Assembly: GCA_003213695.1 (NCBI GenBank) | Contig: QCMO01000005.1 | Span: 1-38,344 of the forward strand | Length of the DNA: 38,344 bases | Direction: 5' to 3' | DNA from: Pelagibacteraceae bacterium AG-422-C23 | Lineage (GTDB): Bacteria > Pseudomonadota > Alphaproteobacteria > Pelagibacterales > Pelagibacteraceae | Part shown: positions 13,036 to 33,377 of the stretch, piece after piece | How positions within the stretch are numbered: position 1 is the first letter of the stretch | Layout of the letters: every line of letters begins with the position of its first letter | Translations under genes and position numbers: made by a program | The notes under the pieces: generated by a model | Database searches by the model: none | What the model saw: only the letters and a program-made list of their open reading frames with translations | What the model was told of the DNA's origin: nothing

Positions 13036-13455
13036 CTATTTCTCCTTTAATGCAGCTTTAACTTCTGGGGGCATATAGTTTTCATCATGTTTAGCTAAAA
13101 TTTTTGTTGCTAAAAATAGACTTCTGTCTTTCAAAAACCCCTCGGCAACGACTCCCTTTCCCTCAGAAAAAAGGTTTGGTATTACCCCTGTGTAAATCAC
13201 ATTTATCTCATTTTCAAAATCGGTGACAATAAATTTTAATTCTTTTTCCTCTATAAAAATTGAATTATTTTTTACCATTCCACCAATCCTAATTTTATTT
13301 TTTTCAATCTCTGCTAGTGATTTTACATCTGTTGGTGATTGAAAATAAACAACATTCTCTTCTAAAGATTTTAAAATAAGAAAAGCTGTTAATGACAAGA
13401 TTAAAAAAACTAAAAATATGAAAAAAAATCTTAATTTAACTTTATTCCCATACAT
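13036..13455 (-). CDS. ccmE: Heme chaperone CcmE
   Basis: [17 protein letters not shown] heme-binding histidine motif; N-terminal TM anchor. Confidence 0.95.
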
Positions 13456-13465
13456 GGTTTAAAAG

Positions 13466-13693
13466 TTAGATACTTGAAGTGTTGGACAAAATTTCTTTAT
13501 TAATGCTTTGAGATTTTGCAAAAGCTGCTCTTTCGGAGTTTAAAGTTCCAAATTTGGCAATAAATTTACTCTTTTCTTTTGTATATTGAATTTTAATTAC
13601 AATATAAAGTAGGGTAAAACATGAAAAAGTGAATGCAAAAGCAGACCAAACGTAAAGTCCGTATCCATTCATTGTTAAAATTTCATTTATCAT
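13466..13693 (-). CDS. ccmD: Heme exporter subunit CcmD (long form)
   Basis: MNGYGLYVWSAFAFTF single-TM CcmD signature; located between ccmC and ccmE. Confidence 0.82.
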   Translation of the reverse strand: MINEILTMNGYGLYVWSAFAFTFSCFTLLYIVIKIQYTKEKSKFIAKFGTLNSERAAFAKSQSINKEILSNTSSI

Positions 13694-14397
13694 AATCTAT
13701 CTAAACCTTTGTTTTTAATCTTTATCAGTTCTGTATTATATTTCATTAAAAAAATTAATAGAGAAAATAGAGCAAATGCCGCAGTCATAATTAATAATGG
13801 ATATAGCATCGATATGTGAATAGATGATTGTGACAAAATATTAACTGAAGCTGGTTGGTGTAGTGTATTCCACCAGTCTACAGAATATTTTACTATTGGC
13901 ACATTAATTATTCCTAAAATTGTTATAATAGAAGTGACCTTAAATACTTTGTCATTATTTTCATAAATTCTCCAAGAAATTAAATATAAAAGATAAAACA
14001 AAGCCATTATTAACATAGAGGTTATTCTTGCATCCCATGCCCACCAGGTCCCCCATGTAGGTTTTCCCCATATTGATCCTGTTACAATCGCAATTATATT
14101 AAATACAAATCCAGATGGTGCTAGACTTTTTGATATTAAAAAAAAATTTCTAATTTTAAAAATATAACCAACAACAGATAAAAAAGTAATTGATGAAAAA
14201 ATTCCAAGACATATCCAAGCTGCTGGTACATGAACATACATTATCCTAACAGAGTGACTTTGTTTGTAATCTTCAGGGGATAATATTAGTGCTTCTGCTA
14301 ATCCTATAGATAAAATAACTATAAATAAAAATAAGACATATTTTGGTGCCTTGGATGTAACTGCAAAAATTTTATTAGGTTCAAAATATTTAAACAT
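13690..14397 (-). CDS. ccmC: Heme exporter protein CcmC
   Basis: YVHVPAAWICLG, WGKPTWGTWWAWDARITSML tryptophan-rich motif, VKYSVDWWNTLHQPAS. Confidence 0.95.
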   Translation of the reverse strand: MFKYFEPNKIFAVTSKAPKYVLFLFIVILSIGLAEALILSPEDYKQSHSVRIMYVHVPAAWICLGIFSSITFLSVVGYIFKIRNFFLISKSLAPSGFVFNIIAIVTGSIWGKPTWGTWWAWDARITSMLIMALFYLLYLISWRIYENNDKVFKVTSIITILGIINVPIVKYSVDWWNTLHQPASVNILSQSSIHISMLYPLLIMTAAFALFSLLIFLMKYNTELIKIKNKGLDRL

Positions 14398-14448
14398 AAT
14401 TTTGATTATTTTAGTGCAATTTACTTATTATTATTAGGAAATAATTGT

Positions 14449-14509
14449 CTGATCAAGAATGTCAGAGGGAGATAATAACGAAGGGTAAATATTTAACATC
14501 CTTGACCAG
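14449..14509 (-). ncRNA. Candidate structured 5' leader of the ccm operon: 13-bp helix (two G-U pairs) with a 35-nt loop
   Basis: Minus-strand RNA arms CUGGUCAAGGAUG (14509-14497) and CAUUCUUGAUCAG (14461-14449) pair at all 13 positions. Confidence 0.5.
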
Positions 14510-14512
14510 AAT

Positions 14513-14542
14513 AATTTACACAATAAATACCTGCTGTGTCAA
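14513..14542 (-). promoter_or_regulatory. Candidate sigma70-type promoter for ccmC
   Basis: Minus strand TTGACA (14542-14537), 18-nt spacer, TAAATT (14518-14513), in the hspQ-ccmC intergenic region. Confidence 0.5.
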
Positions 14543-14577
14543 AGTTTTGAGCTAAATGTGTTTAAAAAATGAATTTT

Positions 14578-14898
14578 TTAGTTTGAAAGCTTAAAATAGC
14601 TAGATCCTTTTTTTCCTGAAAAAATTTCCTCAATTAAAGGATGTTTAATTGGCTCATCAGAATCATCTATCAACAGATTTTGCTCTGAAACATAAGCTTC
14701 GTATGTTATTTCATCATTCTCTGCAAGCAAATGATAAAATGGTTGATCTTTTCTAGGTCTTACATTTTTTGGGATTGATTGATACCATTCTTCAGAATTA
14801 TTAAATTCAAAATCTACATCGTAAATAACACCTCTGAACTCAAAGTGTTTATGCTTTACAATGTCGCCTATTGAAAATTTAGCTTTTTGAATTGGCAT
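14578..14898 (-). CDS. hspQ: HspQ/YccV-like hemimethylated-DNA-binding domain protein
   Basis: KFSIGDIVKHKHFEFRGVIYDVDFEF, QPFYHLLAENDEITYEAYVSEQNL. Confidence 0.9.
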   Translation of the reverse strand: MPIQKAKFSIGDIVKHKHFEFRGVIYDVDFEFNNSEEWYQSIPKNVRPRKDQPFYHLLAENDEITYEAYVSEQNLLIDDSDEPIKHPLIEEIFSGKKGSSYFKLSN

Positions 14899-21496: not shown

Positions 21497-21714
21497 AACC
21501 ACCTAAACATTCCAATAATACCTGCTGTTGCATAAAAGAATTGTAAAAATAATATTCCTCTATGACCACCCCTATAAGCCCAAATTCCAATTAAGATTGC
21601 AGATATCAATAATAAGCAAAAACCGAAAAACTCTATTCCAATATTCATAGCTACAAATAATGAATACAATATTGCGGTAATAACCCCTGCCCATTCAAAA
21701 ATTTTATTATTCAT
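21493..21714 (-). CDS. Small uncharacterised membrane protein
   Basis: 73 aa hydrophobic ORF; overlaps the next minus-strand gene by 4 nt. Confidence 0.65.
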   Translation of the reverse strand: MNNKIFEWAGVITAILYSLFVAMNIGIEFFGFCLLLISAILIGIWAYRGGHRGILFLQFFYATAGIIGMFRWF

Positions 21715-32303: not shown

Positions 32304-33377
32304 ATGAGTAAAAAACCCTTAATTCTTGGAATAGAGTCAAGTTGTGATGAGACGGCTGCATCTATAATTACTGAAAACGAGGATGGAATACCTATTGTTT
32401 TATCAAATATTATATCAAGCCAAGTCGATGTACATAAAGAATTTGGTGGAGTAGTCCCAGAGTTAGCAGCTAGATCTCATATGGAGAAAATAGATTTGAT
32501 TGTTAAAAAAGCAATAAACGATAGTGGTCACAAAATTGAAGAAATTAATGCCGTTGCCTCAACAGCAGGTCCAGGTTTAATAGTATGTTTATCGGTTGGT
32601 TTGAGTTTTGGAAAAGCTTTTGCTGCATCATTAAACATACCTTTTATAGCAGTAAACCATTTGGAGGGACATGCATTAAGTCCTAAACTTAATTCAAATT
32701 TAAATTATCCTTATTTATTATTATTAATTTCAGGAGGGCACTCACAATTTTTAAATGTTCAAAATCTTGGAAAATATAAAAGACTAGGAACAACTATTGA
32801 TGATGCATTGGGTGAAGCTTTTGACAAAACAGCTAAACTTTTGGGAATAGAATTTCCTGGTGGTCCACAAATTGAAATTCTAGCAAAAAAAGGAGATCCG
32901 GACAGATATAATTTACCAAAACCAATAATAAATAAAGGTGGGTGTAATTTATCATTCGCAGGACTCAAAACTGCGATATTAAAGATAACCAAAGATATTA
33001 AAACCGATCAAGAAAAATTTGATCTCGCTGCATCTTTTCAAAAAACTGTTGAAAAGATTTTATATAAAAAAACTAAAATTGCATTCATTGAATTTGAAAA
33101 ACAAATTACAACTAAAAAAAAAATATTTGTAGTTGCTGGTGGTGTGGCTGCAAATAAAAATATTAGATCTATGCTAAATAATTTATGTAAAGAAAAAGAT
33201 TATCAAAGTATGTTTCCTCCAATAGAAATTTGTGGAGACAATGCTGCAATGATAGCTTTAGTCGGATTAGAAAAATTTAAATTAAAACAATTTAATGATT
33301 TAGATTATCCAGCAAAGCCACGATGGTCGTTAGATGAAAATGCAAAATTTCTTAAAGGTGCAGGAGTCAGATTATAA
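32304..33377 (+). CDS. tsaD: tRNA N6-adenosine threonylcarbamoyltransferase TsaD
   Basis: LGIESSCDETAASII, GGVVPELAARSHME, NHLEGHALSP, LLISGGHSQFL, VAGGVAANKNIRSML. Confidence 0.97.
   Translation: MSKKPLILGIESSCDETAASIITENEDGIPIVLSNIISSQVDVHKEFGGVVPELAARSHMEKIDLIVKKAINDSGHKIEEINAVASTAGPGLIVCLSVGLSFGKAFAASLNIPFIAVNHLEGHALSPKLNSNLNYPYLLLLISGGHSQFLNVQNLGKYKRLGTTIDDALGEAFDKTAKLLGIEFPGGPQIEILAKKGDPDRYNLPKPIINKGGCNLSFAGLKTAILKITKDIKTDQEKFDLAASFQKTVEKILYKKTKIAFIEFEKQITTKKKIFVVAGGVAANKNIRSMLNNLCKEKDYQSMFPPIEICGDNAAMIALVGLEKFKLKQFNDLDYPAKPRWSLDENAKFLKGAGVRL

Follow-up and report, generated by a model that had tools for sequence, protein, structure and literature searches.

A conserved RNA hairpin between hspQ and ccmC in the Pelagibacteraceae, a candidate small RNA of SAR11 bacteria

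The intergenic region between hspQ and ccmC in the Pelagibacteraceae encodes an RNA hairpin that is almost certainly a conserved and hitherto undescribed RNA, with homologues spanning the sampled genera of this SAR11 family. We analysed it in a window of 38,344 nt, the whole stretch of DNA under study (contig 5 of a genome with 46 contigs), in which the two genes lie on the minus strand and are separated by 180 nt. The features of the locus are as follows.

14578..14898, minus strand: hspQ (yccV-like; Pfam PF08755), the upstream gene and constant neighbour except in genome G102
14536..14572, minus strand: operator- or promoter-like block of four 11-bp direct repeats, with an invariant C then A at 14571, 14560, 14549 and 14538 (from the column profile, its autocorrelation, and the joint displacement with the hairpin in G102)
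14520..14525, minus strand: -10-like element TATTGT, its leading T and A conserved in 51/55 and 53/55 relatives (column profile)
14511..14513, minus strand: predicted transcription start, 1-4 nt 5' of the helix (placed from the -10 position)
14494..14510, minus strand: 5' arm of the hairpin (17-bp helix, from the best fold and covariance models)
14465..14493, minus strand: pyrimidine-rich hairpin loop (best fold)
14465..14473, minus strand: ultraconserved loop motif AUCUCCCUC, adjoining the 3' arm (alignments of relatives)
14448..14464, minus strand: 3' arm of the hairpin (best fold and covariance models)
14408..14413, minus strand: possible separate ccmC -10 element, TAAAAT, 16 nt before the ATG, of weak sequence here (many relatives have TATAAT)
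13690..14397, minus strand: ccmC (Pfam PF01578), the downstream gene in most, not all, genera

The first-pass annotation of this DNA had proposed a 13-bp helix in the ccmC leader, in which CUGGUCAAGGAUG (14509-14497) pairs with CAUUCUUGAUCAG (14461-14449) at 13 of 13 positions, two of them G-U, and this helix was recovered in full. In the best fold of the minus strand it extends to 17 bp (14510-14494 with 14464-14448), so that the loop, pyrimidine-rich as had been noted, measures 29 nt rather than the 35 nt first given. Fourteen of these pairs (14510-14497 with 14461-14448) fall inside a covariance model of 15 pairs; the outermost pair of the model is a mismatch in the window. The folding energy of the leader was -27.2 kcal/mol, as compared with -15.1 +/- 3.2 for shuffled sequences (z = -3.8; 0/200 shuffles equal). 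Several other GC-rich hairpins of at least 13 bp occur in the window, on the minus strand (2491-2529, 13214-13292 and 21611-21695) and on the plus strand (13473-13512 and 33124-33156), and helix length alone is therefore not decisive; conservation is. The three on the minus strand are possibly terminators or additional RNAs.

We labelled the genera g1 (that of the window), g2 and so on, and the family of the window f1. The intergenic region matches dozens of g1 genomes, at identities down to about 68% and in the order hspQ, element, ccmC. Across 43 distinct sequences, 98.9% of the cells of the 15-pair helix were paired and 7 of its pairs had undergone double changes; the pairing was better than in every shuffle and slide. 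When these relatives were read as minus-strand RNA, G-U cells outnumbered A-C cells by 99 to 4; together with the double changes, this asymmetry marks the minus-strand RNA as the molecule under selection, in agreement with the strand preference first proposed, and would imply that the minus strand is transcribed through the helix. A first covariance model brought out weaker homologues in other genera, and a wider one, which added g2, g3, g4, g6, g8, g10, g11, g13 and g14, showed compensatory double changes at 15 of 15 pairs, with 96.8% of cells paired. Genera g5, g7, g9 and g12 were missed by the covariance models and found by reading downstream of hspQ; their stems differ, and their loops are alike. 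No shuffle out of 500 matched the wider model, and stem finding without a covariance model scored at least 31 in the tested subset and at least 29 in all listed sequences (shuffled control: mean 13.1, maximum 26.6), but shuffle tests of this kind are inflated by the relatedness of the sequences, and we therefore place the weight on the full replacement of the stems from one genus to another (e.g., CUGAUCAAGAGUG/CAUUCUUGAUCAG, GCCUAAUUGGGGAUU/AAUUCUCAAUUAGGC, GUCCAGUUUGAAG/CUUCAAACUGGAC and UGUCUGGUUUGGAG/CUCCAAACCAGACA). The covariation test that had been suggested for relatives was thus passed decisively, with compensatory changes beyond chance in independent relatives, as in a structured RNA element.

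The loop behaves in the opposite manner to the stem. Its core, CUCCC, usually within AUCUCCCUC, lies directly 5' of the 3' arm and is retained in nearly all relatives, while the stems are wholly different (e.g., GCCUAAUUGGGGAUU, GUCUGGUUUGGAG and UACCUAACUGAG). In g5, g7 and g12 the motif ends in CUCCCUU. A second, earlier C run is frequent but not constant, and the length of the loop ranges from about 17 to 37 nt across relatives. In a scan of Rfam 15 no family matched at the gathering level, nor anything plausible at E-values up to 10, and an earlier description was not found in the open-access literature, consistent with the initial view of the RNA as undescribed.

Most of the g1 genomes sampled carry the element, mostly as one strong match per genome. 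Nine g1 genomes without it (G097, G137, G149, G186, G226, G252, G262, G278 and G294) also have neither hspQ nor ccmC; since ccmC is absent too and the region simply missing, we do not count the joint loss of element and hspQ as evidence. These nine genomes are nearly complete, and they may share an assembly gap or have undergone a real regional loss. In a class-wide sample of 289 genomes, matches occurred only in G000, G003 and G634. The match in G634, the only one beyond the Pelagibacteraceae (G634 belongs to another alphaproteobacterial family), was set aside as probable mis-binning, because its contig is Pelagibacter-like (89% identity in hspQ, 77% in ccmC); this contig (G634:C48; L418) has the order septation protein, hspQ, element, ccmC, and is probably a contamination of the metagenome bin. 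Family f2 has no such intergenic region, the septation protein gene directly following hspQ. Covariance matches in f2/g15 were rejected as chance, being located within coding sequence (an NAD(P) transhydrogenase by eye), as were two pattern matches on viral contigs, in GC-rich unrelated DNA with neither hspQ nor ccmC.

A second conserved segment lies between hspQ and the stem. We aligned 55 non-redundant sequences of the family on this common upstream block, and the column profile displayed four invariant or near-invariant C residues spaced 11, 11 and 11 bp apart, mostly followed by A. The autocorrelation of column information peaked solely at lag 11 (r = 0.60, permutation p = 0.0002). Downstream of the block, T and A at 14525-14524 are conserved, and beyond them there is no strong conservation until the stem. 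The distance from this TA to the stem is mostly 12-15 nt across relatives, which fits a -10 element that would start transcription just 5' of the helix. The sigma70-like promoter proposed initially, TTGACA-18-TAAATT, can be read at 14542-14513 but shows no conservation in the 55-sequence profile: its TTGACA stands only 11 nt before the conserved -10, and what is conserved is a different -10 position and the block of 11-bp repeats. Tandem 11-bp repeats are typical of response regulators of the OmpR/PhoB family, and by analogy a response regulator may act on those found here. The operator pattern AACA-N9-CAAA-N5-GACA has an exact match in the window's own genome only at the element, with one-mismatch matches at about the control number.

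In g3 (L162, L165), g6 (L115, L121) and g8 (L163), the element lies 3' of hspQ, and other genes take the place of ccmC downstream. The one in g6 codes for a PagL-like protein (PF09411; lipid A deacylase), and ccmC of that genus is found on other contigs that have no match to the element. In G102, of genus g4, a gene that we take by eye to be methyltransferase-like (L183/L151) is inserted 3' of hspQ, and the intact block and hairpin follow about 850 nt further, before ccmC. Judged by gene order, block and hairpin are one unit, separable from either neighbour gene.

Several other explanations for the hairpin were weighed. A chance structure in AT-rich DNA, for which the additional long GC-rich hairpins of the window might speak, is refuted by the family-wide conservation and covariation, and its probability is practically negligible. 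Scarcely more tenable is a DNA-level inverted repeat, i.e., an operator: its arms in g1 do contain TGATCA-like inverted repeats, but the 99:4 ratio of G-U to A-C on the minus strand refutes it, the arms are replaced between genera with pairing kept, and the loop motif is one-sided. We also consider it very unlikely that the element is a transcription terminator of hspQ or a stabilizer of its 3'-UTR. It is constantly found 3' of hspQ, and a U tract follows the stem in some species (L109, L020); against this, most sequences have no U tract, the loop, at about 17-37 nt and with its invariant motif, does not resemble the short one of an intrinsic terminator, a promoter-like block is conserved between hspQ and the stem, and in G102 the unit lies about 850 nt from hspQ with another gene in between.

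A cis-acting 5' leader of ccmC, in which a transcript from the upstream promoter would cross the hairpin and continue into ccmC, with elongation, stability or translation set by the hairpin (for instance by way of a protein or an RNA that binds AUCUCCCUC), is a real possibility, if one that we doubt. Element and ccmC are on the same strand, with the ccmC start 24-57 nt downstream of the helix in 11 of 14 genera, and the unit in G102 has remained with ccmC while parted from hspQ. Moreover, ccmC mRNA is strongly regulated in 'Ca. P. ubique', rising about 10-fold in sulfur-limited stationary phase and 2-fold in control stationary phase, with the CcmC protein never detected (PMC5069961). This was the one pertinent expression result that we found; the study gave us nothing on the leader or start site of ccmC, and is silent on whether the hairpin is part of the ccmC transcript. 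The absence of a consistent terminator (14/69 sequences have a run of at least 5 T in the 14 nt that follow the helix, as compared with 4/69 for a control stretch) also favours a leader, and speaks against taking a discrete short RNA for granted. Against a leader, the element persists with its covariation in g3, g6 and g8, behind hspQ and with no ccmC downstream, and the ccmC-bearing contigs of g6 show no such match; the initial designation as a ccmC leader is only partly borne out, and a strict association with ccmC does not exist. The stretch from helix to ATG is poorly conserved in length and sequence, and around the start of ccmC we see nothing complementary to the loop. TATAAT-like hexamers 12-32 nt 5' of the ccmC ATG number 72, as compared with 48.5 +/- 6.3 in shuffled sequences, suggesting a further start, specific to ccmC, downstream of the hairpin. 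Nothing in the sequence speaks for the link to heme, redox state or iron that had been suggested speculatively for this leader.

The best reading, to which we give slightly more credence than doubt, is that the element is an autonomous small RNA acting through an anti-Shine-Dalgarno-like loop. It would be a family-wide SAR11 small RNA gene, whose promoter would be activated via the four 11-bp repeats, with a transcription start just 5' of the helix. The RNA would measure perhaps 65-80 nt and may at times extend into the next gene. The stem would serve as a scaffold, free to drift in sequence while pairing persists, and would present the fixed C-rich single-stranded segment AUCUCCCU/C. This segment could pair with G-rich ribosome-binding sites of other mRNAs and so block their translation; alternatively, the loop may bind a protein.

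Among known RNAs, the SAR11 element probably works most like alpha-r14 (NfeR1 of Sinorhizobium meliloti, of the 'cuckoo' RNA family), which keeps an ultraconserved, unpaired, anti-Shine-Dalgarno-like C-rich motif while its stems diverge, and is transcribed from a promoter of its own that is preceded by a conserved stretch (PMC10746234). Both are alphaproteobacterial and combine a fixed C-rich unpaired motif and free stems with a promoter-like region that includes such a stretch. By architecture, however, the element is not a member of that family: it has one hairpin with AUCUCCCU/C in the loop motif AUCUCCCUC, whereas alpha-r14 has three hairpins, each with CCUCCUCCC, in another lineage and at another locus. 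If a response regulator drives the SAR11 element, its logic would be similar to that of ChvR of Caulobacter crescentus, an 84-nt alphaproteobacterial sRNA that has its own intergenic promoter, is activated by the two-component regulator ChvI and pairs through stem-loops (PMC6237742, PMC9731502). ChvR differs in sequence and has several stem-loops, and the Caulobacter ChvI motif, TTGC-N3-GCAA (PMC6237742, PMC9731502), differs from the 11-bp CA repeat found here. In 'Ca. Pelagibacter ubique', Meyer et al. (2009) described candidate RNAs (the rpsB, rpsL, ffh, SAM-V, pntA, rhtB, bablM and SAR11_0636 elements; PMC2704228), which like our element are intergenic and structured and belong to the same group of organisms, one being a single hairpin with a conserved loop. 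None of them lies between hspQ and ccmC, and the ccmC intergenic region is absent from their table of regions >100 bp ranked by GC (PMC2704228).

Targets are a matter of speculation; we compared the loop with gene starts. Complementarity to C-rich loops is a general property of good ribosome-binding sites. In the window's own genome, the proteorhodopsin start ranked 2 of 247 gene starts for pairing with the loop, as compared with 14 of 247 for pairing with the 16S anti-Shine-Dalgarno, and was the sole one with GAGGGAG, the exact complement of CUCCCUC. The AGGGAG site recurred at the proteorhodopsin start (PF01036) in 6/6 g1 genomes where it was seen (GAGGGAGUUUUUUAUG). By genus, the site reads GAGGGAG in g1, g4 and g14, AAGGGAG in g2, g7, g12 and g13, AAGGAGA in g9, AGGGGAU in g5 and GAGGGCA in g10, and is not recognisable in g6. 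The AAGGGAG site of g7 and g12 coincides with a loop ending in CUCCCUU, and g5, with a GGGGAU site, has a loop that also contains AUCCCC. Pairing of each loop with its own proteorhodopsin site was not significantly better than that of other genera's loops (p = 0.13), and the pairing remains a lead. A SAR11-wide sRNA, controlled by a response regulator, that represses proteorhodopsin translation by pairing of its CUCCCUC/U loop with the ribosome-binding site is a specific proposal that we hold to be unlikely; if true, a sensory signal would be coupled to the capture of energy from light. Counts of AGGGAG-N-ATG were close to those of a reversed-pattern control, with no general excess of targets. 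For the 8-mer complement (AGGGAGAT / AGGGAGAU), the sites examined in the own genome were inside reading frames, the element excepted, and the full 8-mer therefore points to no obvious large regulon.

SAR11 is the most abundant bacterial group of the ocean. Its members have very few transcription factors, with two sigma factors and four two-component systems (PMC13198564). They are thought to rely on RNA-level and post-translational control, and the regulatory RNAs described for them are few, riboswitches and candidate leader motifs aside. A family-wide RNA with a promoter-like block, a fixed loop and a drifting stem offers a handle on post-transcriptional regulation in this group.

Two further observations concern gene starts. 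The proteorhodopsin ribosome-binding site (G000:C2:15518-15532; L350, L376; homologues L377-L401) was unusually constant, reading AAGAGGGAGUUUUUUAUG or nearly so in the g1 species checked, with AAGGGAG/GAGGGAG variants at the proteorhodopsin start in most other genera. Two other starts, L407:18319 and L407:5444 (G000:C1), also pair well with the loop; judged by eye, one gene is alanine-dehydrogenase-like (GAGAGAGAUAAUG) and the other encodes 101 aa (AGAGAGGAGAUAAAAUG).
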